Of a stretch of 64,000 bases of DNA, positions 17,030 to 64,000 are shown piece after piece. The stretch is from assembly GCF_001625215.2 (NCBI RefSeq), contig NC_030385.2, positions 36,667,598-36,731,597 on the forward strand, written 5' to 3'. The notes below the pieces were generated by a model. It saw only the letters and a program-made list of their open reading frames with translations, did not search any database and was not told the DNA's origin. The translations under genes and the position numbers were made by a program. Numbering within the stretch: the stretch's first letter is position 1; the number at the start of each line of letters is the position of its first letter. The stretch comes from Daucus carota subsp. sativus (taxonomy: Eukaryota; Streptophyta; Magnoliopsida; Apiales; Apiaceae).

Positions 17030-17262
17030 GGAACCAAGGCTTTGTCTCCTTCCATATGGAGAGATCCATCTTTAGTCATTGTGAGTGGTTCTGTTTCTCA
17101 ATATGCTTCCTCGTATAACAGCTGGGTAGGCCTCGCAGTAGAGCCTTGCGCTGATCTGGAGGCCTATTTACTTTAAGCACCTCCTCTGCTTCATCATAGA
17201 GATTTGACCACCATATTTTGTCAGTTTTTGGGAAACAATGGTCAAAACTGTTGCTTCTGAAA
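17030..17262 (-). pseudogene. PRPL17 exon 2 relic (copy A)
   Basis: Aligns by eye with about 26,465-26,725 of the intact L17 gene exon 2. The phrase [12 protein letters not shown] is still readable on the minus strand and the acceptor-side sequence is recognisable, but about 45 bases are missing in the middle and the frame is broken. It lies in the same orientation as the intact gene and is the outermost member of the duplication block. Confidence 0.85.
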
Positions 17263-18054
17263 GGAACCAAGTAAATGGCGAAAGAGTCAGAGCACGTTCC
17301 ATAGAAAATAACAGACCAAGCAAACTACATTTTTTTAATGATGTGTATATAAACGACTGAACTCACTGATATAACTACAGATGACATGAATCTGGCACCT
17401 TAAGACCACAGAAAAGAGATATCACACAAGAATCTATGCAATAAAAAATAATACAAGGCACTAAACAAGCTAGCATTGCCTGATTCTTATGTTGCGACAA
17501 TGCTATTTACACACTTTATATGTGTACTAAGACTAGATTGCACGTGATGAAATGCATGGAACGTATCCTATTTTAACTACAAGCCAAAAAATGCCATTTA
17601 GTCTTTTGTTGTTTATGCTTACTGTATTTATATATATATGTTAACAGATAAATTTGGTGAAAACAAATTGGGGGAGGGGCGATCAGTGTAAGATCATGGT
17701 AAATAAGGGGTTGTTATTGTATTGGGGTTGAGGATTAGTCACAAGATTGAATGAGGTGACTTATCCACAAATAATGTGTCTTATAGGAAGCAAAGCATTT
17801 GAGGATAAACCCCCTAGAATGGGGTAGGTTTCTTATTCTGGAAAGTCCACAAGAATGGGCCATTATTTTTAGAAACAAGTATCTAAGCCGATCATTAGGT
17901 GTCAACACGACAACAGCTACTCCCGTTTTCTACCCAGGGGATAAGGATTCACACTATCAGTGGGGAGGATGGAAGACGAGATTAACCAAAGTGCTTGGGA
18001 TCAGGTAGCACTGTCAAGTGTTTGTGACCATAAATTGGAGAAACAGGGAAAATG
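17263..18054. other. Spacer with duplicated intron-like sequence
   Basis: Positions 17,340-17,470 resemble the L17 intron at about 26,810-26,930 (shared phrases AAGAGATATCACACAAGAATC versus AAGATACATTACACAAGAATC), so this is relic intron of copy A. The part from about 17,640 to 18,010 is unrelated and unrecognised; it keeps a 69-codon open frame of no visible family. Confidence 0.5.
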
Positions 18055-18235
18055 CTCTGAAACAGTTTTTAGATTGCCAGTGAAGGTCAAGTATAAGCAA
18101 GAGTCCTTGCTCTCGTAGTTTTCATTCGTACAAACTTTACCAGATGAATTTGCTAGGCCTCCCAAACATCTCATGTGCCTTATCGTAGAGATTAGCCCTA
18201 TGATCTTGTTCCTACTTTAGTACCTCCGGACTTTA
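18055..18235 (-). pseudogene. PRPL17 exon 2 relic (copy B)
   Basis: Strongly decayed. AGAGTCCTTGCTCTCGTAGT and TTCATTCGTACAAACTTTA correspond to GGCCCTTGCTCTTGTGGTCT and TTATTCGTCCATACTTTA in the intact exon near 26,540-26,580. Its left edge resembles the 3' flank of the intact gene near 26,250. The reading frame is destroyed. Confidence 0.7.
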
Positions 18236-19964
18236 GCCTCTTTTTCTTTGTTGGCATGGAGATGGGTTCTGGGATTGCACCATATTATTCTAGCGCCTCG
18301 ACTTCTATAATCCCTTAACCGCAATTATAAGAAAAATGTGTAATGCTGATTAGTAAGAGTTTCAACCCCAAATGCCAATAACGTGTATATCAGCAATGAA
18401 ACTCACTAATACAGCTTATACAAAATCAGATGGCATTAATTCAACCCCACAAGACCACAAAAAAAGAGCTATCACGCAAAAGTCTATATAGTATATAGAA
18501 TTCCAGATATTACACAACCTAGCATTAACTGTAGACATTATCAGTAGATATTAACAAAAACCACGCAAACAAAAATAATACTATGATCATAGCACATCTT
18601 TGCCGTTCCGCATAATATCCCTATTGCCTGATATCCTTCTAGCATTATCTGTTCCACAATGCACTCAACTCCCTCCCCATACGTTAAGACGAATTATGAT
18701 TCATAATATCTAGATGCATGCTGAATCTATTACCTAAGTGTGCAAAGAGTGGTCACTGAACCAATCTTTGCAGTTTAAGGGGTCACATGCCTCCCAAAGT
18801 CTAATAAACCGTCATCCAGCAAAATATATACATCACCGCTTATACATTCATTTCTAATTGAAATGTCCCGTGAATCTCGCCAACAATAGTAAGCTATGTT
18901 CATTTAAAGTCACAATAACAACCTTTACTGAGAACTTCAATTGATTTATAGTTTAAATGCTATGTATGGGCTCAAGGCTCTAGCACCAACATAAGTACAC
19001 AAGACATGTCTTACATGGCCACAAGCACAGGCGAGTATTTATATATGGGGAGTGGTGTAATTGCCTTATAGTCTACTACCAAGATATTATGTGTTCAAAA
19101 ATCTAGTGTTACAAAGTAGAGTTGTTGCATTCTGAATTACCAGCCACATTTCTCTCAAATTTATCAAAGAATAGTATCTTTCAAATGCCTTTTAAGCAAA
19201 TTTTTTTGTATCAGTAGGCATTGAATCGAGAACCGTGTTCTATTAAGGTCTTTCTTAAGAGAATTTCGGCTTAAGCTTAAGAAAAGACCCAAATATTAAC
19301 AACCAAACAACTTCCTCTAGAATCTACTATTAAATACCTCAATACAACTATTTTTTTTATAAAAAACCGGAAGTCCCTTGGTAACAGTTCCATTGGCGAG
19401 CTAATCTGAGCTGAACCGCTCTACTGTGCTTGCAATTCTCAAACCGGCTCACCAACATTACATCAAACTATTAAAGCAAGTATTTGAATTCCGAATATAG
19501 GACAAAATATGCAGAATTGCAGAAATATAGACAGCCCATTGTGGCCACTTTATTTTTTGTAAATTGTTAGATAGAACGATGGACTCTAAGCAAATATAGA
19601 TGCAATAAGCTCCAAACAATATTGTAGAGAGGGTCGACCTTTTTCATTTATGATTGGAGACAAAACAATACTACTTTGCTCATGAAGGTAGCCATTAAAA
19701 TTGTTTGCATAAATGTCAAAGAAATACTTCTTGCTCACAAAAATAGAGCTTGGCACAAGTTTCGCTGGACAGATTAATAAACAATTTTTGTTTTAGCTAA
19801 ACAAGACCTTAACAACCTGGTTTAGCTTAATGGTAACATAACATGTAAATCTGCTACAAGCGCAAAGCCAAAAGATGAGCCAGTAATACCATACATGGCT
19901 CAACTTAGAAAAGTTAACACATGAGAATTCAGAGATATTGATAAAGGTAAGCGCACACCCTTTG
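18236..19964. other. Decayed PRPL17 intron sequence (copy B)
   Basis: Several patches match the intron of the intact L17 gene: about 18,370-18,600 with 26,810-27,010, and about 19,130-19,320 with 27,460-27,630 (shared AGAATAGTATCT and AAAGACCCAAATATTA). The stretch is colinear with the intact gene and has no coding function visible. Confidence 0.65.
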
Positions 19965-20335
19965 GGGAGATGCAACTCTGATACGTTGAACAACATGAGA
20001 CATATTCGACCTTTCCTCAAAACTATTATCCCATATATTTCAGATACCGGTACATGTTCTGGTACCAAAAAACTCTGAATTTCAGAAACAAACCCTCGAC
20101 ATCCCGTAAAGAGGACAGGAGATACCATTAGACCAAGTGGTCATTGGCAAACTTCCTCTGTTTCTTTCAATCAGTAATTACAATGCTCTTAACCATCAGT
20201 CGCGTAACTATTAGAAGCTTATACCATGAATTTGGGTAAACTATGCATCAGCGCATCAGGCCATTTAATTTCACTATAACTGCTTAATTATTAGCAGCAA
20301 TAGCAGTAGCAGAAGAGAGTTTAGTAATGATGGAA
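19965..20335 (-). pseudogene. F-box gene relic (copy B)
   Basis: Matches about 21,160-21,475 of the intact F-box gene, including GAGATGCAACTCTG versus GAAGACGCAACTCTG, CCTCAAAACTATTATCCCATATAT versus the same region near 21,220, and AATCAGTAATTACAA. Frameshifts interrupt it; a 111-codon frame overlapping it is not a real gene. It is followed directly by a relic of PRPL17 exon 1. Confidence 0.85.
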
Positions 20336-20377
20336 GACCAAGACAATGAAAGGAGGGGGGGAGGGAAGAGCAAGTTG

Positions 20378-20530
20378 GGCAGGTACCTAAAGAGAGAAGA
20401 GGAAGGAGAGAGCGAGGCCATGGATATGGGATTTATAATATTGGTCTTCCTTGAGATTTTGCAGAAGGAGATTGCAGAAGTTAAACTGAACAGGGATGAT
20501 TGTTGTAAATGGGTGGCAGTAAAGCTAATA
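20378..20530 (-). pseudogene. PRPL17 exon 1 / donor relic (copy B)
   Basis: AGGTACCTAAAGAGAGAAGA aligns with the exon 1 splice-donor region of the intact L17 gene near 29,208-29,230, and GTTGTAAATGGGTGGCAG with GTTGTAAATGGGGGGCAG near 29,334. The coding frame is lost. Confidence 0.78.
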
Positions 20531-20948
20531 TTAGAAAAATGATATCATATTTTACTAAATTCGCATCTAATAACCAAATAACAAATATTACATAATAATT
20601 CTAATTGTTATTCTTTTGAAAGAATAATAACTCTAATTGTTAGTTTTAGATATTAGACCTTGATACCAAGTTATTTTTTAGTTGTTAACCGACCTAATTT
20701 AAAAATTTATATAGGACTAGTAAACAACAATTGGGATGAGTATAACACGACTGACTAGTAAACAACAATGAACCAAAATATGCCATACAATATCTTTAAA
20801 ACCAGGTTCAGCCTCATCAAACATAATAACTGAATTGCATTATCTGCTACAAGCACATGAGCTAGTAATAGCTCAACTTAGAGTTGAAGCAAAATGATTC
20901 AGGAAATTTTAAAGGTAGACACATAGTTCAAATGTAGATAAATAACTC

Positions 20949-21854
20949 TCAAATTATATTGATATTCGAAACATGGAATCCATTTATATACCGACGAGAA
21001 ACCCTCATTTTGTCCTTGGGGGTTCCCAAAACCAAGGTTAAAGCTTCGCCAAACACAATCTCTTCCTCTCCAAAACTACAGCTCAGAATATCATCGTCTT
21101 CAGTTGAATTCTCCCCGACCTTACAAATGGCAAGATAGACCCCCTTCATTATAAACCCTGACTTGGGAAGACGCAACTCTGGTGTCTCAATAAACTTAAA
21201 ACTTGTTTGACCTTCCCCAAAACTATTGTTCCATATATCCAAAACAGTGCTATATGTTCTGGCATCACGAGGCTCTAAGTTTCTATAACAGACCTTCCCT
21301 TGCCTTTTAGAATCAGTAATTACAACACTATCAACCAAAGGATAACGAACCTCCAAAAGCTTACGCCACAAATTTGGGGTCACGATGTACCTGAAAGCCG
21401 TAGAAGTTATTGTATCACTATCAGCAGCTGTAGTAGTAGCACTAACACTCCCACTCACAGAAGAAAGTTTAGCAATCGAATTGTATACAAGACACGCACA
21501 TGAACAAGTATTAGATCTGAACACGGCCTTCCACTTAAGATCAAATTTTTGGTCTTCCTCTTCAATGAAAATAAGGTGGAGGGATCGAATCCTAGGGAAA
21601 CTTTTAAGGGCTCGGAAGGCATAGGTAACTTGGCCCAGGAAAAAGGATCTAACTTGCGGTCCGGGGATAGACAGAGTTCCTGAAGAAATGAGAGGAATTA
21701 ACAATGCAAATCGCTTTGAGATAAGCATACATTGGCACAGGAATTTGAGGTCACAATTCAGCATCGACAAAATCAAAAGCAAGAGATCATCAGTAAGTTG
21801 AGGAAACAAATCCTTGCTCGCAAAATCTTTAAATTCATTTCCTTGCACATCCAT
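20949..21854 (-). CDS. F-box protein, single exon
   Basis: Intronless 301-residue protein. Residues about 15-55 form an F-box (DLFPQLTDDLLLLILSML, then CMLISKRFALLIPLI), which in the family binds SKP1 of an SCF ubiquitin ligase. The remainder, including SFPRIRSLHLIF, TPNLWRKLLEVRYPLVDSVV and FMKG-like MKGVYLAICKV, resembles the uncharacterised C-terminal half of plant At5g46170/At1g30200-type F-box proteins; the substrate is unknown. The ATG at 21854 is directly before the F-box. The gene lies in the PRPL17 duplication block, apparently inside the remnant of a duplicated PRPL17 intron. A clean 301-codon frame flanked by decayed copies suggests it is still functional. Confidence 0.85.
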   Translation of the reverse strand: MDVQGNEFKDFASKDLFPQLTDDLLLLILSMLNCDLKFLCQCMLISKRFALLIPLISSGTLSIPGPQVRSFFLGQVTYAFRALKSFPRIRSLHLIFIEEEDQKFDLKWKAVFRSNTCSCACLVYNSIAKLSSVSGSVSATTTAADSDTITSTAFRYIVTPNLWRKLLEVRYPLVDSVVITDSKRQGKVCYRNLEPRDARTYSTVLDIWNNSFGEGQTSFKFIETPELRLPKSGFIMKGVYLAICKVGENSTEDDDILSCSFGEEEIVFGEALTLVLGTPKDKMRVSRRYINGFHVSNINII

Positions 21855-21880
21855 GTCAATGAAAAGAAAAAAATATCGGA

Positions 21881-21994
21881 CTGATTTTGGTTATGCGGCG
21901 CTGTCAAGTAGTTTTAAGATCTAATTTAGGGTTATCTCTGATTTTGGTTATGCGGCGCTGTCGAGTAGTTTTAAGATCTAATGTAGGGTTATCT
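21881..21994. repeat. Two-copy 57-bp tandem repeat
   Basis: The sequence beginning CTGATTTTGGTTATGCGGCG occurs at 21881 and 21938 with two or three differences. It lies immediately upstream of the F-box start codon, so it covers the likely 5' UTR or promoter. Confidence 0.9.
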
Positions 21995-22453
21995 TGGGCC
22001 TTGAATTTACTCTTAAGACCTTATGTAGCATACAAGGAGAGACTTTAAAATACAATTTGTGGCAATTTTATTTCGAGAGAATTCTTTATTTTATTTGAAG
22101 TATCACCCGAGGTGATGAGCAAAAATCCATTTTGAATTGTGTCAATCCAATTAAACTAAAAAAAAGTGATTTTGGTTTGACACAACCCTTTTCATTTACT
22201 AATTTAGCTCTAAATTGCGCCTTTTTATATTTTTTTGTAGCCCATTTATTTTGGGCTCTACTTTATTAGGCTTTACTATTATTTCCGTCTATATACATCA
22301 TGTCAGGATATTGTTCTTGCTAGCTAGTTAATTTGATATTTAATGGATAAATAATATATCGATATTGAGCTAAGTTCTTGGGGTAGTGATGGAGGCTAAG
22401 GTTTCAAACAAGGATTACATGCAGAGATAGACACACAAGTATTGTATTTTCAA

Positions 22454-22611
22454 TATCAATAATATTAATATGATTTTATTACAATAACCATTAACCAATC
22501 TTTATTTATAATGGGTCCGGGTCCTGACATACTATCAATAATATTAATATGATTTTATTACAATAACCATTAAACAATCCTTATTTATAATGGGTGCGGG
22601 TCCGGATCCCT
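22454..22611. repeat. Two-copy 79-bp tandem repeat
   Basis: TATCAATAATATTAATATGA starts at 22454 and again at 22533, and each copy ends in a GGGTCCGGGTCC/GGGTGCGGGTCCG phrase. Few differences separate the copies. Confidence 0.88.
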
Positions 22612-23947
22612 GGCATATGAATGTCAGGGCAAACTATCACCAATTTTTTTCCGTTAGATGGTGCTATATTAAAATTTTGAAAAGGGGACAAGTGAAATTA
22701 AAATTATAATTAACCACACGGAGATTGTTTTGCCTTAACAGGATTAGCCTAATATGATTTCAATGCTTGTATATAGATGGCTATAACGACCTCGCATTGA
22801 AGCTCTCGTCGCATCCCACAACAATAATTCTCTCAACCATCATTACAAGTGTTATCCTTTTTTGTATTCCACCAAATGCGAGCTGTATCTTGTTGTGTAT
22901 CCTCATGCTGTGTAGCCTTAGCAAAATATGTTTTCCTCGTACATTAATGCCACTAGAAGAAACTCCCCAAACTATGTACCCAACCAAGTAACGCATCTCC
23001 ACAAGTATATCAATTAAACTCATGAAGCCTCTAACTTGATCTTCGGAATTAGGTGGCTCTTTTTCTGATTCACGATGACCAAGTAATTGAACTATACTGA
23101 TCTGTATGATCGTTTGTTGCATAATTACAATAGCCATCTCCTCTTTATTTCATGTATTAACAGTCAACTTCGCAATTTTCTTTTATATTTCTCGGATATG
23201 TTCTTTAAGTATTGCATTCACCTCAGCAGCATTCACAATTCATTCTGTTGGGGGCTGGGGCAGAACCTTAAAATTCAGAAGTCCAGGGTCTGTTGTAAAT
23301 TTGTAAAAACTCAGGGACTCTTTTGAGTTTTAGAAAACTGCATGGACTGATATGTAATTTCAGAGCAGCTGGAGGACTGGTTAGTAAATTCTGGAAAGGG
23401 CAGTGCTGGTCTGTGACGTTTTATAGACTTTGGGTTAATGTTGTTTGGTGTGACAATATACTGCACTATCACTAGACAGTAACTTAAGCTCGGATAAACT
23501 GAAGATGTTTGGTCTTGGCTTCAAAGAATAAGGGTTTCATCCCTCTTCGATAAACAGATGATAGAAATTATGAACTACAAGTTTCGTCTCACATTCTTTT
23601 TTTCCCTAAACGGTTTTTGCAACTAATTTGGACTCAAACTCGACTGAGCTCAAGTATACCGAAACCTGCTGGAATTGTCTAAATAGAACTTGTTTATTTA
23701 CTATTATCGGTTTTTATATCATCCTATGCCTATGCGAACAGTTAGACAATTCTGGGTCATTATTCGGTTGAGTACATTTTAATAAGATAAAACCCAAGTC
23801 AGATTCATTTTTAATATATAGCTTGGCCTGAAAGTGATTGAACCGATTCAGCTCGCCTTGACAACGACCAATTGGTTGGGCAAGCTGCACTTGGAACCAT
23901 GTTCAAGCTCTTTTGTAATTTAAAACTTGTTACCAAAAAAACAACTA

Positions 23948-24177
23948 GGGGGCGTCTGTTTCATTGTTAATGAGCCCAGTTAACAAGAATCGGAACCTCA
24001 TATCCATGTGTTGGTGTTTGGATTAGCAATTTTGTTGTGTGGAATGGGAACCCAATTCCCAGTTAGTGGGTAAATAATTCCTTTAATACCACTCGGGTTC
24101 CCATACCCTCCACCTCCATTCCCGTACCCCTCATTCCAATTCCCGATTCCCATTCCAATCTACTATCCAAACGCCCC
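23948..24177. mobile_element. Tourist/Harbinger-like MITE
   Basis: Terminal repeats GGGGGCGTCTGTTT and (complement of the right end) GGGGCGTTTGGATAG are flanked by CTA on both sides. A T/C-rich right arm (CCATTCCCGTACCCC) pairs loosely with a G/A-rich left arm (GAATGGGAACCC). About 230 bp, no coding capacity. The superfamily assignment rests on end sequence and the 3-bp duplication. Confidence 0.65.
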
Positions 24178-24611
24178 CTAGGTTCGACTCTAATCACTCT
24201 CTCACCACTGTAGTTCAGATTTGGGTAAAACTGGACTGATCTAAAACCTCTTTCTACGTCTACCAAATTCATACAACAACAGTCCAAAGCAGCCACAAAC
24301 ACAACAACTTCCATCATATGCTAGGCACAAATACATTAGCCTCCATCATATGCTTCCTACTTGTGTAATGGCCTAGTCTAGACTGAGTAAATTAAGCTAC
24401 AAAACCCCCCATTTTCAGTGACGTAAAGCAATTGACAATAATATGGGATCTAAAATGATAGCAAACAAGCTTCAAGCATTACATGGAACATATATAACAA
24501 GAAATACAGGTGCATCAGGCTAAGGATGCAAGAACACAGACACACATAGCAACATTAACAGAGATTATGATAGAAAGAAAACAAGGAAAATTTCGAACCG
24601 TTAAGCTAGGT

Positions 24612-24672
24612 AAGGAAAGGGGTACCTGGAGAGAGGAGAGGAGCGAGATCATGGAATGGAAAGAGCGGAACC
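24612..24672 (-). pseudogene. PRPL17 exon 1 / donor relic (copy D)
   Basis: GGAAAGGGGTACCTGGAGAG and AGGAGCGAGATCATGGAA align with the exon 1 donor region of the intact gene (about 29,195-29,255). It lies upstream, in gene orientation, of the intact F-box gene, which places that gene in the remains of a PRPL17 intron. Confidence 0.72.
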
Positions 24673-25825
24673 AAAGTCGTAGGTAAATTAATCAAAATTA
24701 TATTTTCTTTTATGAAAAATAACTGTTTTATATTGAAATAGCTTAGTTTTTTTTAAAGAAGAAGAAGAAGAAGAAATAGCTTTTAGTTTAATTTCATTAA
24801 TTTTTATTTTATATAAATATACTAATTTATAATTTGTGTAATGTATGAATGGATTGTCATATTTATTTTTTATTATATATTTAAATATCTAATCTTGTTT
24901 CAAATATATATTTATGTAAAATTATATGTGTTTTATAGTTAATATTTTTAAAATAACTAATAAATTATATTTGAACTAATATATGTTTATTATATATATT
25001 AAATAGTTTTGAAAGATGTGCTTTTATAAAAATATTTAAATATAAATAATTTTTTAGTGTCGGATTGGGCGTGACAATAATTAAAATTAATATTGTAATA
25101 TCATAGAGATCCTGATCTGTCGACAAGTGATTTGTGAACGGAGTCACGAGCACATGTTCAAAATAAAAATTTAAACTTGTTCATTCTCTATCTCCAAATA
25201 GATTATTTTTTGTTACGTCATTTTTCGCAGATTTGTGAACCGGAGTCACGACGAGGGTTAAAATAAAAATTTAACTTTTTCATTTTTTATCTCCAAATAG
25301 ATTATTTTTTGTCGTGTATTTTTGAATTGACATTTTCGTGCTAATTAATGACGGAAAACCCAAACATCCTAAAAACTGATTTATTTATAATTGGCTGATG
25401 CCACTAGAAGGTTAATTTGGGACGCATGAACTTTCTGTAAACTAAAAGGGTTGAAAATTTTGTTTTAATCGTCACTGTCCGTAGCTTCATCCAACAGATG
25501 AGGAGCTGCTTGGTGGTTAATTGATCCCTGAGTCCCTGACCAGTGACTATCAGACTGCTACGACCCATTATTCAATACTGCATTGCTAATTGCACTTGAG
25601 CTATTTGTCTTTATAATTTCTGTATGGTCAACATTAATATCTCTCTAACCATATTGTGTTAATAATCGCATTGCAGTGATCCGCTTCTAACGTGATAGAT
25701 TACAAATGAACCACACAGTTTAAGCATCAATGGATCTTTGTACAACACACTAAGCCATGATGTTACGGCTATACAAAAGAATTCAGCCAAATCTTCAGCT
25801 TCTGTCTCATACAAAGTTTGCTGAC
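24673..25825. other. AT-rich intergenic region with a 101-bp tandem repeat
   Basis: Contains a GAAGAA microsatellite (about 24,758-24,776), an AT-rich tract and the tandem repeat annotated separately. No gene recognised. Confidence 0.5.
25129..25325. repeat. Two-copy ~101-bp tandem repeat
   Basis: GATTTGTGAACGGAGTCACGA at 25129 recurs as GATTTGTGAACCGGAGTCACGA at 25230, and both copies contain TATCTCCAAATAGATTATTT. Copy divergence is moderate. Confidence 0.85.
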
Positions 25826-25962
25826 TAGCTCAATATAGGTCTGCAAACAAGAAATGCACTATCTGCTCCTCGTGTATATACTTGTCAACATATATGCTTT
25901 CTCATGGTACTGCGCCTTGCTCTCGCAGTCTTTATCCGTCCATACTTTAGCAGCTGGGTTGG
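25826..25962 (-). pseudogene. PRPL17 exon 2 relic (copy E)
   Basis: Aligns with three separated parts of the intact exon: the stop-codon region (ACTAGCTCAATATAGG), the GCACTATCTGCTTCTCAT region and the CTTTATTCGTCCATACTTTA region, with deletions between. It lies only about 350 bp from the intact exon, downstream in gene orientation. Confidence 0.85.
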
Positions 25963-26313
25963 CACTTATTTTGCGCTCTCAAAGCAAAAGACAGAAGTTG
26001 ATGATCCTACCTTCTTCCGATTCATTGACTACTTCCTGAATATACAAGAGCATCAATACCTGATTATACAAGAGCTCAATGCTAAAAACTTAAAATTTCA
26101 TTAGCTATGTCCTATACTTTGTAACCACTTGTTACCACCAAAAAGCATCCATTATCCTTTAGTTACCAACGATTACATAGAAGCTTCGTTAGTAAATGTA
26201 CATGACAGATTCACAAGGTCTGCAGCATACAATGAACAAACAGAAAAAATGTTCTCAACAGTTTTCAGATAGCTAGTGAAGTAAGACATAAGCAATACAA
26301 AGCGTGGCCTTAA

Positions 26314-29300
26314 TTAGACTAGCTCAATATAGGCCATTGGTGCATTGTCTCCTCGCCTAGGGAGAGTTCTGATTATTCTTGTATATCCTCCATTCCTCTC
26401 CCCATATCTTTCGGGAACCTCTGCAAACAAGGCATGCACTATCTGCTTCTCATATATATATCCAAGGGCTTGTCTCCTTTTATGAAGAGATCCATCTTTA
26501 GCCATTGTGATCATCTTATCAACATGCTTCCTCATGGCACTGGCCCTTGCTCTTGTGGTCTTTATTCGTCCATACTTTAGCAGCTGGGTTGTTAGGCCTC
26601 TCAAAAGAGCCTTGCGCTGATCTGGGGGCCTATTTAGTTTAGGGACACGCCTCCCGTGTCTCATCATGGAGATACGACCACCATTGTCAATTATTGTGAA
26701 GCACTGGTCAAAGCTGTTGCCCTCTAAAAGAAAGCAGATAAATGCCAAAAAGTCAAGCAAGTTCCAGGAAATATAAAGATAACAGGCTAAGCAGAATAAA
26801 TATTACGATTATGTGTATTAGCGATATAACTTGCTACATTACAACAGATTACATGACTAGCACCACAAGGCAGCGGAAAAGATACATTACACAAGAATCA
26901 ATGCAACAATAATGATCAAAGATAATACACATGCCAGCATTGACTGAATCTTAAAGACATTATATGTAGATATTAACAATAATCATGCAATTGTTTTTAT
27001 AATCATAGTGCACCTTTTCCTTTCTGCATACATCAGGATTGGACATGATCAAGTTTTTTTTAGCATCAACTGTTCTTCAATCCTCTAAACTCCCTAAAGT
27101 ACATCCTTGAATCAAAGATAAATTAAGATTCAAAGAATTTCACTGCATGCGAATTTTTTAGCATAATTTGCAAAAGTGATCACTGAATTAACTTTTCTGT
27201 ATAGGGAATCAAATGCCGCCACAAAAAGTCTTATAAACCAATAAGAAGCAAAAAAAGAAACCAATTATTACATGCATTTTGAATATCACCAAGTATGATA
27301 AGCTAGCATTATTAAAGTCACAGCAATAACCTTTACCTAGAATTCAGCGAATTATGATGTAATAGCCACACACAGACACACTAGCAAGCATTGTAATCTA
27401 CTACCAGAATATTACGTTTTTGCAAATTTAGTGTTGCAAAATAGCCTTTTTGCAACTTGTATTACTCGGCACAATTTTCTCAAATGTACAGAGAATAGTA
27501 TCTATACAGTTAGTTTCTGCTTGCCAATTTCATTTGTATCACTTAGCACTGCATCTGAACCTGTTCTACTAATAAGTTCATTTTTAGATTCATTCTCAAC
27601 CAAAAGACCCAAATATTATCAACAAAACTTCCACTGTAGGTTTTACTTTGCTCCAATATGACTAAACAAAATCATAAAAATGAGAGAACCCATACTGACA
27701 GTATTTTGCTAAGCCGAACTGGATTGAACATGTTGGAGCTCATATGTGCTCACAAACAAACTCAATTTAATTAACAACATTACAATAAACCAAGCACTTG
27801 CATTCCAAATAAAGAACAGACTAGGCAAATTCATTTGATGGAAGTACAGTTTCCATTTATTATTAAAGGCGGAAGCAGCCCTATTTTAGCTGATCAAGGT
27901 AAGCAACATATTGTTTTGCTTACATTCCAAAGACATACTGCTTGATCACCAAGATATAGAACTCCTTGATCACAACATTAAAGATGAGGATAAGATTAAC
28001 ATGTCAAACTTGTGACCAACAATCACCCAATATATGCCTTGGCTAAACAATATCATAAGATTAATATTTAAACTGAATTATGCATCATTTGTTACTAGCA
28101 GTAGCACAGAGCAAAACTATGGGTCATGAACCAGTAATGTAATAATCCCCCCTGATCTTACTAATGACAAGAAAGAACCTTACATTAGAAACATTGACTT
28201 ATGAAGACACAACTTTAGTACCTCGAAGAAGTCAAGACTTGTCCAGCCTTCTTCAAACCTCCTATTGTACCGTACATCTAAACATAATATCCTAGACAAT
28301 TCTTCCAGATGAATAATGAAATCCAGGTTCGTGATGTTAACATAAAATGGCTTGTTCCTTCATCAGATAATGATGTTTTTTGTTTCATTTTTTTCTGCAA
28401 CACAACATCAGTGGTTATGCCTTCTTCGTGCCTTGTTTGAATAACATTGTTCATGTGTCCGTGTTTCATGTGCAAACATGGATTAAACAATCGGGATGTA
28501 AAGTAACAAAAAGGGTTGCACATGCTTTTAACATGATTTTAAACCAAAAAAAGTTGTGACATGGTACTTATACATTCCTCCTTTCTAAGCAACACCAATC
28601 TCTCTCTCTTTCCTACCATTGATATGAGTATAATTTCAGATCCCAATACAAAAAAATAACCATAGATACTGATTGCAGATGCTAACAATCAATTAAGCAA
28701 ATACTTTTATAATGCCACTTCAAGTTCTCATTTCTGCATCCATCAAGATTGTCAGAACGTTGCATCCAGAAATTTGTAGTTAGCACTTGACGTTTCAATT
28801 AGTAAACAGAAACAGAAATCTACGCATTGCCGATGCGGGGCACAAATCTTCCTATAGCAAAGATGGGTAGGGATCCCAGTGGTCTGAGTTCGAGGGTTCC
28901 AAGTCTTACTAGAAATGCAGTGGTCACAAATTAATTAAAATTGGTCCAATATACACATCACCATCTCAGAAGAGCCCTGATAACCTTATCTAGTTCACTC
29001 TTCCGTAACTACCATCATATGGCATATCGACCCTAGTTACGATTAAAACATACGAGCACGGTATTTCAGGCTGATTTCAGTATCTATGGAGCCTTGACAA
29101 AATATAAAGACCAAGAGAACAAGGGGAATTGACTAAACATGTAAAATGCGCACATTGATATATACAAAAATGAGAAATAGAAAAAGAAAGGCGAGGAAAG
29201 GGGAAAGAGGTACCTCGAGAGAGAAGAGGATGGAGAGGAGCGAGACCGTGGAAAGAGCGGAGAGAGATGGGATTGGGCTTCAGAGAGATTTTAACACAAG

Positions 29301-29418
29301 GAGATGAGACAACAGGAAGGCGAGCTGAAGTGTTGTAAATGGGGGGCAGAGCTGCTTTCAGACAAGACATGTTCCATGTTGTTGCTGTTGTTGTGGCCAG
29401 ACTGCTCACACTCGCCAT
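26314..29418 (-). CDS. PRPL17: Plastid 50S ribosomal protein L17
   Basis: Bacterial-type L17 of the chloroplast large ribosomal subunit. Two exons, 29418-29214 and 26723-26314, join in phase to give 204 residues. Residues 1 to about 75 form a Ser/Thr/Pro-rich transit peptide. The L17 domain begins at about [20 protein letters not shown], continues through [24 protein letters not shown] and ends [14 protein letters not shown], the exact C-terminus of the plant plastid family. The 2.5-kb intron contains a relic of the neighbouring F-box gene in the same orientation. Decayed copies of both exons at 17.0, 18.1, 20.4, 24.6 and 25.8 kb show that the locus has been duplicated repeatedly; this is the only intact copy here. 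Confidence 0.94.
28150..28285 (-). pseudogene. F-box gene relic inside the PRPL17 intron (copy C)
   Basis: GAAGACACAACTTTAGTACC and GACTTGTCCAGCCTTCTTCAAA align with GAAGACGCAACTCTGGTGTC and the CTTGTTTGACCTTCCCCAAA region of the intact F-box gene (21,110-21,248). Flanking sequence at 28,085-28,150 also resembles that gene's 3' flank. The frame is destroyed. Confidence 0.75.
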
Positions 29419-30223: not shown

Positions 30224-32460
30224 TTAGCGATAAAACAGATCCCGCGTCTCCAATTCCACCCCACCTACTATCCGATGTTTTGCATCAGGATGGGCATCTA
30301 GTGATGACTTGCACTGTCTTTGTAACTCCATATACCTGGCAACATCAAAACCATGCTTCTTGATCAGTTTGTTCCGTCTCCTCAGAAACAGCCTCTTCAA
30401 CAGATCTTGATATGTCGGGTCTCTCGAAGTGAACAAGAAGTACGCATAACCTATACCGGCGCCAAATGTTGTGGTGAAAAATGCAATTGGCTCCATTACG
30501 TCCCATGAGAACTCCCAGAATGTGAGTCGGAAGAAGAGCCCGACCCCTAACAGAAAGGACCCCAACCCACCCCAGAGGATGTGCCTGACCTGCTTATTAG
30601 CCATTACATCAAGCTCAGCTTTTCTCTCCTGCAGCTTCTTCAGCTCTTCCAGCTTGGGGTCATCATCAGGTAACAGAGCAAGGGGCATTGCCCTCCTAAC
30701 CAAATCCACAACCTGGACATACAGAATATGTTGTTGACCAAGATAAATACAACAGAACAGAAACACGAAATTTGAATAAAATATTATAAACAACTGCACT
30801 GGATATCTAGAGAAACTACATGTCTCACACTCCTACTGCCCTGCCAGGTTATATCTGGTCTGGCTGATCCTGAAACAAGAGGTTGGCAAGACCTCAATGT
30901 AAACATGATAAATAAAAAAAATCATAATCAAGGATGCTAAAAATCTAGGGAGCACCGGCAGAAACAGAAACTTCCGCATATTTAGTAAACTTATAAGTTA
31001 TAACTGATAGGTATAAATATGACATACATGCTTTAAATCAATGTAAAGAGCAGAAATTGGGGAACCTAAAAACAACAGCCTTTCCATACTGCATAATAAA
31101 AAATCAGGATCAAGTCCTTTAACTTGTACCAGCAAGAGCATTCACACCAGAACATAAGAGTCGCCACTACAATTAAAGAAGCAAGCATTTTTAATTTATA
31201 AGAGTTATAAGACCATACAACATACCACAGCCTCCATCCTTCACTTTGGATGACAGTTTTTGTCGCTTAAAGAACATAGTGTAAAAAGTGTACTGGACAT
31301 TAGCAACTTCTTAACATACCTACATCATTCTCACATACTACCTTTGACAAATTACCCCATTTGTTCTTATTATGTTGTGTTTGGTTGGGGTGAATGAATT
31401 TGGAAGAAATACTAAAATGAAATTCGAACTATGTTATGGACAATTGTTTATAAATTTCATTCCTTCCTCCATTCCATTCAGTACACCCTATACTAGAGAT
31501 CATACCCCAATTTGAGAAGAAATGCTCTATTCCCTCCTATACTCAATTTCTTTTCAAATCTCATCATGACAATTTTGCACTCACTCAATTCTTTTCAAAC
31601 CTTCTCTTCTACATCTATTATCTTCATTTATATTCAGTCATTCAATTCCATTCCATTCCATTATCTTCATCTTATCCTTCCACCTCATAATATACTTCTG
31701 ACTGAGCTATACTTGTCTACCTAAATTAGGACATCTGCGTACATCTCACTATCCCCTAGACATGCGCTATTCCCTCAGTATACTTGCTTCAATCAGCTAT
31801 TTGAGGTTTTACAATCAAATCAATATCAACAACCGAAGAACATCGATAAGTTAGACAACTCAATATCACATCGCAACAACTTAATTACTAATGCAACAAA
31901 CTACATAAAAACACATGTTAACAATCACACTACGAAAAATGCAAAAAACATGGATAAATTTCCAAAATCGCAAAAACCGCAAAACTATATACCTTATCAG
32001 GATGCAGATAAACCTTATCTCTAAACAACAAAACGACGCCAGCATCATCCAGAACCCTAGCAAACACAGTCGCCTCCTCATCCGATTTCGCCACACCGTA
32101 ACCACGGCAAGCCTGAAGCAAATCCCTGTACGAAATCACCTCTTTACCCTCCGTGCCCAGTTTTACCTTCAGCGCCTCTACATCCACCAATCTCATCAGC
32201 TTCCGAGCTTCCGCCGCCGTTATCGTACCGCTCTCTTTCGTCTTCCGAGCTTCCGAACACGCAGCGGTCGTATTAGCACTCTCATTGTCATTATTATTCT
32301 CCTTCCGTTTCGATTCAGCACCCGTGCAAAACGAGGGGAAGAAATTAGCGTAATTAGGTCTGTTAATCAAACAGTTAGTGTACTTGTTTGGATTGTTAAT
32401 TAATCTAGGTCTTGTGTTAACTCTGATTTGTTTCAGCAGATTATACGAAGATCTCCACAT
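30224..32460 (-). CDS. MCU: Mitochondrial calcium uniporter pore subunit
   Basis: Forms the Ca2+-selective channel of the mitochondrial inner membrane. Two exons, 32460-31993 and 30712-30224, join in phase to give 318 residues. The N-terminus ([20 protein letters not shown]) is a basic amphipathic presequence. A matrix domain with [15 protein letters not shown] and a coiled-coil stretch ([17 protein letters not shown]) precede TM1 (about 200-218). The selectivity filter is WDVMEP with Asp227 and Glu230, then TM2 (about 233-250, ending in the [20 protein letters not shown] segment). The C-terminal region is [24 protein letters not shown]. The intact filter and full family length argue for a working gene. 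The ~1.3-kb intron shows no recognised element. Confidence 0.95.
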
Positions 32461-35140: not shown

Positions 35141-35449
35141 CTAGGCTTTGGGCTTAAACGTCCAGCTTTTCACACCCACATTGCATTGTCTTTGCAACTC
35201 CATGAACCTGACAATGCCAAACCTATGTTTCTTCATCAGCTTCACTTGCCTCTTCAGGAACAGCCGATATCCAATTGGCTCCATAACAACTGGTGACAAC
35301 TTCCAGTACTTGAGCCAATAGAAGAAGAAAACCGGACACATTAAGAAGCCAAACCCACTGCAGAGGACGAGGCTTTTGGCCTGCTTGCGAGCCATTGTAT
35401 CAAGCTCATCTTTTTCCTCTTGCAGTTTCTTCAGCTCATCAAGAATCAA
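35141..35449 (-). pseudogene. Truncated MCU-like relic
   Basis: A 102-codon open frame aligns with MCU residues from [11 protein letters not shown] to MELQRQC (ILDELKKLQEEKDELDTMAR at its start, HRFGIVRFMELQRQC near the end). It lacks the presequence and matrix domain, the filter WDVMEP reads PVVMEP so the pore Asp is lost, and the outer half of TM2 plus the following loop (about 25 residues) is deleted, joining MEPIGY directly to RLFLKR. The frame remains open despite this. It starts abruptly with no upstream exon nearby. A functional channel subunit is very unlikely; a short expressed peptide cannot be excluded. Confidence 0.85.
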
Positions 35450-58178: not shown

Positions 58179-58950
58179 TGCGATAATCGAGGTCGAATTG
58201 AACTTGCTTCCCCGGTGCGGCTAGGGAGTGAGGGTTTGTATTGAGAAGAAAATGAACTAATGAAGTGTTACTAATAAACGGGGGACAGAGAACAGAAAAA
58301 AGAAAAACCCTTCCCCAAACCACTCAAAAACCCCTAGGGTAGGTAGCTCTAACGGGTCGGGTCTTGGACTCTTGGGTCTTGCTTCAACAAATTTGTGTTT
58401 TCTGAATTCGGTTTTTGTTGAATTTTGATTTTATTGCGATAAATTTATTAAAAAATATGCAGGGTTTTGTCGATAGTTACATTTATATCCGATTTGTAAA
58501 AATAACTTTTGAGTTAAAAACTGTTTTTAAAATTATCATACAGATGTTAACATATTTTTTGGCAAAAATTTATTGATGTTATCTGCAACACAATAATGGA
58601 TCTTGATTTGATAAGAGTGTTGACATCTTGTCATATGCAATAAGGATGAAACAATACCTCAAATATAATGAAGACTAATTTTAAAAAAATATTATGACAT
58701 ATCATACAAAATGAAAATATAAAATAACTTATATTTAAATTAAAATAGGACCTTTTTTTATCTTAGCGAAATCAAAACAGGAAATTGTGTTCTTTTAAAT
58801 CCCGAAATCTATTTATTATAATATCAATACTTAACAAATAAAAATGAATCAATTCTTATATATGATAAATTTACTAGTTAGAGGTCAAAAATCAAAACAA
58901 TATCATTTTAAACAGAGATAAGCATATATTCATCAGATTTATTCAGATTA
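58179..58950. other. TOM40 upstream flank
   Basis: Presumed TOM40 promoter and leader followed by AT-rich sequence up to the LINE 3' tail. From 58,275 on, the whole stretch recurs at 61,741. Confidence 0.7.
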
Positions 58951-61457
58951 TTTTTTTTTTGCCGAAAAAGTTAAACTTGCATTCAAACTTTCAAATCGTT
59001 CAAGAGTACATGAATAAATTCAGAGGGGACATTTTCCCCATTCCAACTACGATCAGCTATTGAACTACTATGTCTCGCTATGAAGTGAGCCACGTTGTTC
59101 GCGGATCGTTTAACAAATTTTAGAATCACCTTACGGTTATCTAATTCAGAGAGAAGATTCTTGCACTCATCTATCACTCTTCCAAGGTATGAAAGATTGA
59201 CTGAAGAGCAGCGAATTGCCTGAGTTGCAGTCAGACAATCAGTTTCCAGAATTACATTTATCCAAGCTTTGTCTTTAATCCAACTAAGAGCTTCCCTTAT
59301 CCCGATAACCTCTGCGAGTTCCGGAGCTGTCCTACCCTGCTTGCAACTCGAAAGAGCCTCGATCAACTTCCCCTCATGGTCGCGAGCTACCATAGCATAG
59401 GAATAGCAGTTAGAATCTTCAAATAATGCAGCATCTGTATTAACCTTGATCGTGCCTTCCTGTGGTTGTTTCCAATGCACATCCCCATCTGTTGGATTCA
59501 TAAACCCGAAGGAGGAGTCATAAGACCTATCTTGTGCATTCTTCCAGTGATCAAGGACTTGGATAGCTGATGCTACCACCTCTACAAACTCTGCGCCTTT
59601 TTGATTCCAAACTATATCATTTCTGTTTTTCCAGAGAGACCAACAGATCATACAAAGATTTAATAGTGCCTCCCCCCTATACTCCTGTAGTGCTATAGAC
59701 ATCCATTCCTGAAAACTCTGATTGGTATGCGTCGCAATCTTACAACCAAAATTATTCCAGCAAAGCTTTGCAAAAGGACAGGATGTCAAAACATGGGCCA
59801 CCGATTCTGGCTCTAAATTGCAGACTGGGCACTGTACAATAACCTCAACTCTTCTAGCAATGAGCTGCTCCTTTGTAGGCAAACATCCCGTAATAGCTCT
59901 CCATAAGAAATGCTTGACTTTCAAAGGGATTTTTAGATTCCAAATTCTCCTCCAGAAGCCAGAGTTATCACTGGAATGATTCACATCCCGTATTTCACTT
60001 AGAGTTGCATAGGCGCTTTTAACCGAGTACTGACCCATCTTTTCTCTTCTCCAATACCAAGAATCCTCCACAGAGCGTTGAAGAGGTATTGATAGAATTA
60101 AATTTGCGTCACGTTCAATGAAGATGTCGCTGATTAACTCCATATTCCACCTGCTTTGGTCAGTCTCCATCAACGAACTTACCTTCTTGCCAACAAGAGC
60201 TTCCTGGATTGTATGGATATAAGGATCATCCACACATGGTAACCAAGGATCCTGTACCACATCTATAGAATTCCCAGACCCCACACGACGACCTGTATCC
60301 TTCTTTAACATCTCCTGAGTTTCAAGAACACTGCGCCAAACAAAACTCGGGTTACATCCAAGAGAAGCAGTGAGAAAAGAACCACCTGCATAGTACCGAG
60401 CTTTGTAAATTTTACTCATTAAACAGTCTGGCCGCGTAATCAACCTCCACCCTTGCCTACCCAGTAGAGCTATATTAAAATCATGCAATCGACGAAAGCC
60501 TAAACCACCTTTTGATTTTTATATGCTCATTCGATCCCAACACATCCAAGAAATACCTTTTGCCTTCCTAGAAGAGTTTCGCCACCAGAATTTGCACATA
60601 AGATTCTCCATTTCACTACATAAATTCTTCGGTATCAAGAACATACTCATAGCATAACTTGGTAATGCCTGCACCACTGTTTTCAGAAGAATTTCCTTTC
60701 CCCCCTTCGAAAGAAGTTTCTTGTCATATCCTTCAATCCTTGTCTGCATTCGCTCTTTTAGATAACCAAGAACAGCTTTCTTATTTCTCCCTATAATACT
60801 AGGAAGACCCAAATAAGTTGTGTTTGCTCCTGCTTCTTGGAACTGCAATATGTTACAAATCTCAGCCCTCACCTCCTGACCAACATTACAGCTAAAGAAA
60901 CTCGAAGATTTTGTAGCATTTAATTTCTGACCCGAAGCTTTTTCGTACACTTGTAACATGCTGATCACCTTATTTGCTGCCTCGCTATTTGCCTGACAAT
61001 AGATGTAGCTGTCATCAGCAAAAAACAAATGAGATAAAACCGGAGCACCTCTAGCAACCTTTATGCCTTTGATATTTTTCCTCCTTACATTCTCCTGAAT
61101 TAAAGCTGTGAGTCCCTCCATACAGATAAGGAAAATATAAGAAGAAAGCGGGTCTCCTTGCCTAATTCCTCTTTCTGGCACGATTAAACCAAACTCCTTT
61201 CCTGCATGATTAATTCTATATCTGGCTGAAGTTACACATTCTAGTAGCAAATTGACCAATCTTCTGTCAAAACCTAACTTTACAAGCATTGCGCGCAAGA
61301 AGTTCCACTCCACCCTATCATAAGCTTTGCTCATGTCCAACTTTAGAGCCATCCACCCTGCTCTACCTCCGACTTTTCTTTTCATATAATGCATAACCTC
61401 ATAGGCTATCATGGTATTATCAGAGATTAATCGCCCGGGAATGAAAGCGCTCTGATT
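58951..61457 (-). mobile_element. 5'-truncated LINE retrotransposon
   Basis: Plant L1-type non-LTR element. On the minus strand homology starts abruptly at [14 protein letters not shown] (61,457), which is inside the reverse transcriptase, and continues with [26 protein letters not shown] and the catalytic FADD in [13 protein letters not shown] (frame 61,412-60,519). One in-frame TAA follows [12 protein letters not shown] near 60,520. The second frame (60,488-58,983) carries the zf-RVT region (IPLKVKHFLWRAITGCLPTK, CPVCNLEPESVAHVL) and an RNase H domain (VNTDAALFED, ELAEVIGIREAL, ILETDCLTA). A 10-base poly-A (poly-T on plus, 58,951-58,960) marks the 3' end. Endonuclease and ORF1 are missing, so it is dead. 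Confidence 0.93.
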
Positions 61458-61740
61458 TTAATATTAATTAATTATTGGATATATTATCTTTTATTTTTAT
61501 AATATACATAATGTGTTATATATGTCGACTTATATTATTCTTGTTTTCTTTCTTCTATTCTCAGGATTCTTGGAAGAAGACGGGTTTTTCTTTTCGGACA
61601 TTAAAGTTTTATTGTCTAAATTTCCCCGGTCATCTTGCATGTCCGACGGTTAGATAATAAGCTTTCTTGAATGAAAGAATTATCACGGTGAACTGCTGTT
61701 TCATATTGTTGAGATTCATTCTCATTTTCAAAAAAAAAAA
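61458..61740 (+). other. Unrecognised segment ending in poly-A
   Basis: About 285 bases between the LINE truncation point and the start of duplication unit 2. Plus-strand features are a pyrimidine tract ending TTCTATTCTCAG (like a splice acceptor, to about 61,563), a 35-codon frame, and an A12 run at 61,728-61,740 exactly at the duplication junction. It could be the 3' end of a retroposed transcript. No gene recognised. Confidence 0.5.
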
Positions 61741-64000
61741 TAAACGGGGGACAGAGAACAGAAAAAAGAAAAACCCTTCCCCAAACCACTCAAAAACCCC
61801 TAGGGTAGGTAGCTCTAACGGGTCGGGTCTTGGACTCTTGGGTCTTGCTTCAACAAATTTGTGTTTTCTGAATTCGGTTTTTGTTGAATTTTGATTTTAT
61901 TGCGATAAATTTATTAAAAAATATGCAGGGTTTTGTCGATAGTTACATTTATATCCGATTTGTAAAAATAACTTTTGAGTTAAAAACTGTTTTTAAAATT
62001 ATCATACAGATGTTAACATATTTTTTGGCAAAAATTTATTGATGTTATCTGCAACACAATAATGGATCTTGATTTGATAAGAGTGTTGACATCTTGTCAT
62101 ATGCAATAAGGATGAAACAATACCTCAAATATAATGAAGACTAATTTTAAAAAAATATTATGACATATCATACAAAATGAAAATATAAAATAACTTATAT
62201 TTAAATTAAAATAGGACCTTTTTTTATCTTAGCGAAATCAAAACAGGAAATTGTGTTCTTTTAAATCCCGAAATCTATTTATTATAATATCAATACTTAA
62301 CAAATAAAAATGAATCAATTCTTATATATGATAAATTTACTAGTTAGAGGTCAAAAATCAAAACAATATCATTTTAAACAGAGATAAGCATATATTCATC
62401 AGATTTATTCAGATTATTTTTTTTTTGCCGAAAAAGTTAAACTTGCATTCAAACTTTCAAATCGTTCAAGAGTACATGAATAAATTCAGAGGGGACATTT
62501 TCCCCATTCCAACTACGATCAGCTATTGAACTACTATGTCTCGCTATGAAGTGAGCCACGTTGTTCGCGGATCGTTTAACAAATTTTAGAATCACCTTAC
62601 GGTTATCTAATTCAGAGAGAAGATTCTTGCACTCATCTATCACTCTTCCAAGGTATGAAAGATTGACTGAAGAGCAGCGAATTGCCTGAGTTGCAGTCAG
62701 ACAATCAGTTTCCAGAATTACATTTATCCAAGCTTTGTCTTTAATCCAACTAAGAGCTTCCCTTATCCCGATAACCTCTGCGAGTTCCGGAGCTGTCCTA
62801 CCCTGCTTGCAACTCGAAAGAGCCTCGATCAACTTCCCCTCATGGTCGCGAGCTACCATAGCATAGGAATAGCAGTTAGAATCTTCAAATAATGCAGCAT
62901 CTGTATTAACCTTGATCGTGCCTTCCTGTGGTTGTTTCCAATGCACATCCCCATCTGTTGGATTCATAAACCCGAAGGAGGAGTCATAAGACCTATCTTG
63001 TGCATTCTTCCAGTGATCAAGGACTTGGATAGCTGATGCTACCACCTCTACAAACTCTGCGCCTTTTTGATTCCAAACTATATCATTTCTGTTTTTCCAG
63101 AGAGACCAACAGATCATACAAAGATTTAATAGTGCCTCCCCCCTATACTCCTGTAGTGCTATAGACATCCATTCCTGAAAACTCTGATTGGTATGCGTCG
63201 CAATCTTACAACCAAAATTATTCCAGCAAAGCTTTGCAAAAGGACAGGATGTCAAAACATGGGCCACCGATTCTGGCTCTAAATTGCAGACTGGGCACTG
63301 TACAATAACCTCAACTCTTCTAGCAATGAGCTGCTCCTTTGTAGGCAAACATCCCGTAATAGCTCTCCATAAGAAATGCTTGACTTTCAAAGGGATTTTT
63401 AGATTCCAAATTCTCCTCCAGAAGCCAGAGTTATCACTGGAATGATTCACATCCCGTATTTCACTTAGAGTTGCATAGGCGCTTTTAACCGAGTACTGAC
63501 CCATCTTTTCTCTTCTCCAATACCAAGAATCCTCCACAGAGCGTTGAAGAGGTATTGATAGAATTAAATTTGCGTCACGTTCAATGAAGATGTCGCTGAT
63601 TAACTCCATATTCCACCTGCTTTGGTCAGTCTCCATCAACGAACTTACCTTCTTGCCAACAAGAGCTTCCTGGATTGTATGGATATAAGGATCATCCACA
63701 CATGGTAACCAAGGATCCTGTACCACATCTATAGAATTCCCAGACCCCACACGACGACCTGTATCCTTCTTTAACATCTCCTGAGTTTCAAGAACACTGC
63801 GCCAAACAAAACTCGGGTTACATCCAAGAGAAGCAGTGAGAAAAGAACCACCTGCATAGTACCGAGCTTTGTAAATTTTACTCATTAAACAGTCTGGCCG
63901 CGTAATCAACCTCCACCCTTGCCTACCCAGTAGAGCTATATTAAAATCATGCAATCGACGAAAGCCTAAACCACCTTTTGATTTTTATATGCTCATTCGA
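61741..64000. repeat. 3,466-bp tandem duplication, unit 2 (partial)
   Basis: Repeats 58,275-60,534, including 100+ bp of the TOM40 upstream flank, the AT-rich spacer and most of the LINE. It continues past the window end. Confidence 0.93.
62417..64000 (-). mobile_element. Second LINE copy, cut by window end
   Basis: Identical 501-codon frame at 63,954-62,449 with zf-RVT and RNase H domains, and the same in-frame TAA just upstream. Its reverse-transcriptase half would lie beyond the window if the unit is complete. Sharing of flanking TOM40-derived sequence shows it arose by DNA duplication rather than independent retrotransposition. Confidence 0.92.

Follow-up and report, generated by a model that had tools for sequence, protein, structure and literature searches.

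Tandem copies of a plastid ribosomal protein L17 locus in carrot and the probable separation of a nested F-box-like gene from its host by complementary decay

In carrot, one intact gene for plastid ribosomal protein L17 (PRPL17), one intact F-box-like gene and relics of both lie in tandem copies that fit within ~12 kb, every one of them on the minus strand. The arrangement very probably goes back to an ancestral locus with the F-box-like gene nested in PRPL17, followed by tandem duplication of the composite locus and complementary decay of the copies, here called D, C and B. The locus was analyzed in a stretch of 64,000 nt, referred to as the window, from Daucus carota subsp. sativus (GCF_001625215.2, NC_030385.2:36,667,598-36,731,597, forward strand). 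The gain and loss of nested genes is usually inferred across species, with the intermediate steps gone. Here, one genome preserves several such steps within ~12 kb: a host whose guest has died, a guest whose host has died and a copy in which neither gene survives. If the proposed history is true, a nested pair can be separated by tandem duplication and complementary decay with neither gene moved elsewhere, and fixed predictions follow for related species.

Intact genes and relics of the locus

The region from 15 to 31 kb of the window was compared with itself, and each patch of similarity was locally aligned and set against 300 dinucleotide shuffles, none of which matched the score of any named patch. 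When 50 shuffled F-box proteins were used as a protein-level control, the top score was E 0.03. Codon comparisons omit stop codons and partly aligned codons. PRPL17 exon-2 relics are found at 17.03, 18.10 and 25.85 kb, exon-1 relics at 20.38 and 24.57 kb, and F-box relics at 19.96-20.35 and 28.11-28.28 kb. The initial annotation of this DNA had listed at least five PRPL17 fragments (17.03, 18.06, 20.38, 24.61 and 25.83 kb), two F-box fragments (19.97 and 28.15 kb) and one intact gene of each kind. Each of the PRPL17 fragments beats 300 of 300 shuffles, neither F-box fragment is equaled by any of 300, so that both stand above background in the self-comparison, and the intact genes are accounted for by a 301-aa open reading frame (copy C, 21854-20949) and a spliced protein of 204 aa (copy D, 29418-26314). 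The reading of the fragments as five duplicated units is not borne out, with relics A and E being loose exon-2 remnants. A search of 15-31 kb against Rfam returned nothing over the gathering scores.

Copy D holds the intact PRPL17. Its exon 1 (29214-29418) runs in an open frame from the ATG to a GT donor at 29213, the predicted GT..AG intron spans 26724-29213, with splice sites picked to keep the frame open, and exon 2 occupies 26314-26723. Splicing 29213/26724 gives the predicted 204-aa protein, to which exon 1 contributes 68 residues. The Ribosomal_L17 domain is complete (PF01196, profile positions 1-97 of 97, E 1.6e-37), and the exon-2 part aligns with residues 71-205, the end of the chain, of a solved L17 (PDB 4v61_BP, E 1.4e-77). 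This chain and the chloroplastic chains 5mlc_P and 5h1s_P are the best PDB matches. The full domain and the closeness to chloroplast L17 point to membership in plastid bL17c (PRPL17), of which copy D resembles an ordinary, intact member; its protein has no visible oddity, and the unusual feature is only the surrounding relics. Inside the intron (29213-26724) lies an F-box relic (28112-28282) equivalent to positions 611-784 of the coding sequence of the intact F-box gene; here at least, guest sequence sits within its host. The relic scores z 18.9 when the patch alone is shuffled and z 15.5 when the whole intron is shuffled. At the protein level it is recognized at E 3.6e-4 with an internal stop, and its dN/dS against copy C is 1.07 on 44 codons.

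In copy B, both genes are decayed. The exon-1 relic (20382-20538, z 17.8) ends in a GT donor identified by eye, and is followed by an F-box relic (19957-20345) with stops and frameshifts, of which 19957-20136 scores z 18.2 and 20152-20345 continues the match in the self-comparison. The protein-level match of this relic is E 1.7e-6, and its two parts give dN/dS values against copy C of 0.95 (42 codons) and 0.54 (55 codons). Together with the 1.07 of the relic in copy D, these values, from frames with stops or frameshifts, are as expected for decay. Next comes a PRPL17 intron relic (18321-19867, z 31.8 with 25 shuffles), collinear with 26757-28109 of copy D, and then a relic of exon 2 and its 3' flank with an internal deletion (18015-18166; 3' flank z 5.9 with 25 shuffles). 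The exon-2 part (18105-18166, z 11.3) is identified at the DNA level, because its protein match reaches only E 0.48. The dN/dS of exon 2 (0.72, 20 codons) and of exon 1 (0.86, 42 codons) in copy B come from stretches too short to say more than that they are unlike constraint.

Copy C holds the intact F-box-like gene, a single exon at 20949-21854 that encodes 301 aa. The putative F-box matches PF12937 at E 0.0023 and 18.1 bits, below the curated cut-off of 24.3. We take the protein to resemble the Arabidopsis At4g18380/At1g30200 group. A PDB search with it found no solved relative at E<=1, and an unaided fold prediction was uninformative (pLDDT 34) and was not used. Upstream of the gene, as the initial annotation had indicated, is a PRPL17 exon-1 relic (24568-24669) comprising the last part of exon 1, a GT donor identified by eye and the start of the intron. 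The core of this relic (24621-24669) scores z 6.7, and blastn extends the match to its full length with E 4e-7; its dN/dS of 3.8, on 13 codons, is again from too short a stretch to say more than that it is unlike constraint. Downstream, homology to the copy B intron extends over the 3' flank of the gene (20550-20917, z 5.0).

The two remaining relics contain exon-2 sequence. Relic A (17034-17254, z 39.9, protein E 6.8e-9) is preceded in gene order by the 3' end of the intron (17255-17489, z 17.6 with 25 shuffles) with an AG acceptor identified by eye. Relic E (25822-25983) lies just downstream of copy D; 25849-25983 scores z 20.1 with a protein match of E 6.8e-9, and 25822-25848 is the end of the coding frame, read by eye. 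An F-box relic in copy A was considered and rejected, since the search of 17.49-18.02 kb gave nothing (153 of 300 shuffles as good).

Comparison of the copies and their proposed history

In B, C and D, the F-box sequence lies 3' of PRPL17 exon 1 in identical orientation and register, and a GT donor, identified by eye, ends exon 1 in all three. B repeats the order of D, with exon 1 followed by the F-box, its flank, the intron and exon 2, and the two match collinearly from the F-box relic along the intron to just short of exon 2. These shared parts indicate that the duplication took in both host and guest. The initial annotation had placed the F-box sequence between exon 2 and exon 1 in B and C; this is fully correct for B, and also for D, whereas C has exon 1 upstream but lacks a downstream exon 2 belonging to the same copy. 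In a comparison of segments, 9 of 153 pairs had z >4.5 (25 shuffles each). The match between B and C in the 3' flank of the F-box was drawn from these 153 pairs and has a score of 54, unequaled in 300 shuffles by a narrow margin (best shuffle 52.5) and above the best of 238 control tiles (48). The same flank matches between B and D with none of 300 shuffles as good, and weakly between C and D (12 of 300). Compared with the sequence upstream of exon 1 in D, the downstream flank of C gives no match (74 of 300 shuffles as good). F-box identity is 0.67-0.70 between C and B and 0.73 between C and D. C and B are the closest pair in the 3' flank and the most distant pair in exon 1, and pairwise distances in different segments conflict on the order of the duplications.

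Because of the intron relic in D, the collinearity of B and D, and the exon-1 relic and B-like 3' flank of C, the F-box gene is considered to have been nested before the copies split, in agreement with the initial annotation. The ancestor, reconstructed from three copies in one genome, would have carried a single-exon F-box-like gene inside the intron of the plastid L17 gene in the same orientation. Tandem duplication of this composite locus would have brought both exon 1 and the F-box to three copies or more, leaving both genes redundant and free to degenerate in complementary fashion. D would have retained PRPL17 and dropped the F-box gene, C would have retained the F-box gene and dropped PRPL17, and B would have dropped both, with A and E as exon-2 debris. 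The presence of one copy with the host only (D) and another with the guest only (C), as judged from their frames, is the reciprocal loss that had been proposed for this locus. The formerly nested genes would now stand end to end. That the copies decayed neutrally is inferred, as is the succession of events.

A variant with the same nested ancestor and one whole-locus duplication fewer regards C and B as a single PRPL17 copy, in which an internal tandem duplication from within exon 1 to mid-intron gave the one host gene a second nested F-box copy along with a stray extra exon 1. It would explain why C is without its own exon 2, and the C intron homology stops at 20550 while the B exon-1 homology reaches ~20538-20545, nearly abutting as at a duplication junction. 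A simple deletion from the C intron into B exon 1 gives the identical junction, however, and C and B are not clearly closest by pairwise distance. The junction may reflect a deletion or an internal duplication, and we regard the latter as possible but somewhat doubtful.

Other explanations abandon the nested ancestor. The F-box gene of C is now flanked by two exon-1 relics, which could mean that it was a neighbor of PRPL17 and that unequal exchanges in a tandem array produced the nested look; this is very unlikely and was rejected, as D is a single intact PRPL17 with the relic within its intron, and B repeats the whole order. A mobile element might instead have carried the relics of B and D in separately, a possibility raised by two places on contig C7 that contain the 5' half of the F-box gene plus its 5' flank in a ~3.8-kb unit (92-97% alike in four aligned pieces); such transport may have happened there. 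The C7 fragments are from the opposite end of the gene, and no PRPL17 match at E<=1 is present in the 30 kb analyzed at each place, while the relics in B and D share the same intron register and a common flank; capture was rejected for B and D as highly improbable. Both separate insertion and neighboring genes account poorly for the common register and flanks. Chance similarity in AT-rich DNA might be suspected for the short patches (18105-18166 and 24621-24669), the former having the poor protein match given above, but the 300 shuffles per patch, the 238 control tiles and the consistent order and strand leave this explanation next to no probability, and it was rejected.

Parallels among vertebrate nested genes

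Duplication of a nested pair followed by loss of host or guest is already published for vertebrates. The LRRTM genes are nested in introns of the vertebrate alpha-catenin (ctnna) genes, and the nested pair is proposed to have been duplicated as a unit (PMC3933685). On the same proposal, the host was then lost and the guest kept in lrrtm4 and in frog lrrtm3, which is without ctnna3, and frog ctnna1 without lrrtm2 represents the opposite loss (PMC3933685). The carrot locus is alike in that a nested pair was probably duplicated before host or guest was lost. The LRRTM/ctnna losses are inferred across species (PMC3933685), whereas the carrot copies are in tandem within ~12 kb with relics still readable. 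The carrot genes are also plant genes, and the guest lies on the strand of its host.

A second parallel comes from teleost fishes, in which omp is nested in capn5; the pair was duplicated, and relics of ompb persist in the capn5b intron of herring and piranha (PMC13378369). Relics of a lost guest in the intron of a duplicated host are the feature shared with carrot. The fish case, as described there, differs in involving whole-genome duplication, a guest on the opposite strand and host genes conserved in both sets (PMC13378369). Among the matches listed from the open-licence literature, there was no plant case of nested-pair duplication and loss, and in this respect the carrot case is new.

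The surviving F-box-like gene

In the genome searches that returned results, neither the full-length F-box protein nor PRPL17 exon 2 was found outside the window. Against the two C7 fragments, copy C has dN/dS values of 0.25 and 0.31 on 91 codons, with a weak excess of third-position changes (p 0.03 and 0.06). In simulated neutral substitution (2000 runs per level, indels not counted), the 301-codon frame of copy C stays free of stops in 16%, 3.2%, 0.65% and 0.15% of runs at 0.05, 0.1, 0.15 and 0.2 substitutions per site, respectively. The surviving gene presumably works, to judge from its sequence.

Between this gene and the exon-1 relic upstream of it, no further exon-1 sequence was found at 21.9-24.5 kb (46 of 300 shuffles as good), and C and D have no match between exon 1 and the start of the F-box (57 of 100 shuffles as good). 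It is conceivable, but unlikely, that the first exon and splice donor of the host (24568-24669) stayed with the F-box gene and now serve it as promoter and 5' leader. Separation would in that case have placed the former guest under a ribosomal-protein promoter.

Organisation of the PRPL17/F-box locus

Within the window, all copies of the plastid ribosomal protein L17 gene (PRPL17) and of the F-box-like gene lie on the minus strand and are described from high to low coordinates. The intact PRPL17, copy D, comprises exon 1 (29418-29214), an intron (29213-26724) that holds F-box relic D (28282-28112), and exon 2 (26723-26314). It is followed by exon-2 relic E (25983-25822), exon-1 relic C (24669-24568), and the intact F-box-like gene C (21854-20949) with its intron-like 3' flank (20917-20550). 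Copy B, decayed in both genes, consists of an exon-1 relic (20538-20382), an F-box relic (20345-19957), an intron relic (19867-18321), and an exon-2 relic with 3' flank (18166-18015), and the series ends with relic A, which retains intron and exon 2 (17489-17034). The intron of the intact PRPL17 also contains a short internal repeat (26965-27041 versus 28674-28751, 74%).

The initial annotation had named a series of PRPL17 and F-box fragments. Each was aligned to the corresponding intact gene, and none of 300 dinucleotide shuffles matched the score of any of them, confirming that the fragments are real. Its tally, though, was one of fragments; counted by gene part, exon 1 and the F-box sequence have three occurrences each (B, C, and D), and exon 2 has four (A, B, D, and E). 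The weakest fragment in the shuffle test, exon-1 relic C (z 6.7), is also found by blastn (24568-24669, E 4e-7), and its donor sequence resembles that of D by eye. The F-box patch in the PRPL17 intron, on which the annotation had made its proposal depend, stands above background (z 15.5, whole intron shuffled). At the protein level, the F-box relics reach E values of 1.7e-6 (B) and 3.6e-4 (D), against a best E of 0.03 from 50 shuffled F-box proteins; exon-2 relics A and E reach 6.8e-9, and exon-2 relic B only 0.48. Two further stretches gave no match: 153 of 300 shuffles equalled the score of the F-box against 17.49-18.02 kb, and 46 of 300 equalled that of exon 1 against 21.9-24.5 kb.

Probable nested ancestry and the C/B junction

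Copies B and D have their parts in the same order, on the same strand, and in the same register, running from exon 1 through F-box, flank, and intron to exon 2. The B intron (18321-19867) aligns with the D intron (26757-28109) with z 31.8 (25 shuffles). Copy B has the 3' flank of the F-box in common with D, where none of 300 shuffles scored as well, and also with C. The B-C match, originally picked out among 153 segment pairs, scores 54, compared with 52.5 for the best of 300 shuffles and 48 for the best of 238 control tiles. The C and D flanks match only weakly (12 of 300 shuffles as good), and C cannot be aligned with D over the stretch from exon 1 to the F-box start, for which 57 of 100 shuffles did equally well. 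On balance, these comparisons suggest that the F-box sat in the PRPL17 intron prior to the split of the copies.

The C intron homology and the B exon-1 homology almost touch, near 20540-20555. Either a single deletion took C exon 2 together with the B promoter and the start of B exon 1, or a segment was duplicated internally in tandem and the junction marks that event. On the second reading, C and B would be opposite ends of a single host gene carrying two guests. The pairwise distances favour neither.

Decay and retention of the copies

The reading frame of F-box relic B is broken by stops and frameshifts; relic D has a frameshift and, in the frame aligned by tblastn, a stop. Compared with C, dN/dS is 0.95 and 0.54 in two parts of relic B (42 and 55 codons) and 1.07 in relic D (44 codons), as for decaying copies, with too few codons for dating. 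Most of the changes that separate PRPL17 relics A and E from D are silent (dN/dS ~0.23 over 46 codons for A and ~0.21 over 25 codons for E). This does not hold for exon 2 of B (0.72 over 20 codons) or exon 1 of B (0.86 over 42 codons), and exon 1 of C (3.8), at 13 codons, offers too little sequence for interpretation. Because the changes in relic A are mostly silent, A was perhaps once a working gene, during much of its life, as judged from few codons.

Spliced PRPL17 D encodes 204 residues. Its exon-2 product matches Pfam Ribosomal_L17 and aligns to residues 71-205 of a solved 205-residue L17 from spinach (4v61_BP, E 1.4e-77). In the assembly (441 Mb, 11 contigs, with the window on contig C5), exon 2 gave three matches from five candidates, all in the window (D, A, and E). 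This search missed relic B, so strongly decayed copies escape it, and it would overlook distant paralogues too.

The 301-residue product of gene C has a Pfam F-box-like match under the curated cut-off (E 0.0023), no relative at E<=1 in a PDB search, and no usable predicted fold; its sequence marks it as F-box-like rather than as a proven F-box protein. The frame is still open. In simulations of neutral substitution at 0.05, 0.1, 0.15, and 0.2 per site (2000 copies per level, substitutions only), 16%, 3.2%, 0.65%, and 0.15% of copies stayed stop-free. The protein gave five genome matches from nine candidates, namely gene C itself and four fragments at two sites of another contig, C7. Comparison of gene C with the C7 fragments over 91 codons yields dN/dS values of 0.25 and 0.31, but taken by itself the excess of third-position changes is weak (p 0.03 and 0.06). 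The two C7 occurrences, near 28082495 and 28558623, hold the F-box 5' half and 5' flank (window 21515-22188) within a ~3.8 kb unit that is 92-97% identical between both places in four aligned pieces; a mobile element may have captured this fragment of the gene. Directly upstream of the C start codon lies a 57-bp tandem duplication (96%, 21881-21994), and overlapping matches place this stretch once in the C7 copies.

Comparable nested genes and neighbouring sequence

Nested genes were reportedly studied by Assis et al. in 2008. The vertebrate nested LRRTM/alpha-catenin pair is proposed to have been duplicated, with later host loss in some copies and guest loss in others (PMC3933685), and in herring and piranha the intron of capn5b still contains fragments of pseudogenised ompb (PMC13378369). 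The process is thus already known. Unlike these vertebrate cases, this plant locus is arranged in tandem and has kept several of the intermediate states side by side; no plant example appeared among the matches listed (titles in the open-licence literature).

A mitochondrial calcium uniporter (MCU) exon adjoins PRPL17 and also occurs as an incomplete second copy, from which 28 residues are missing (30224-30799 and 35183-35443). Further along, a LINE-like reverse transcriptase/RNase H unit occurs in tandem (58273-61459 and 61739-64000), the second running 925 bases beyond the window end. The units are 99.97% identical over 3187 bp with a period of 3466 bp, and reflect either duplication in the very recent past or an artefact of the assembly.
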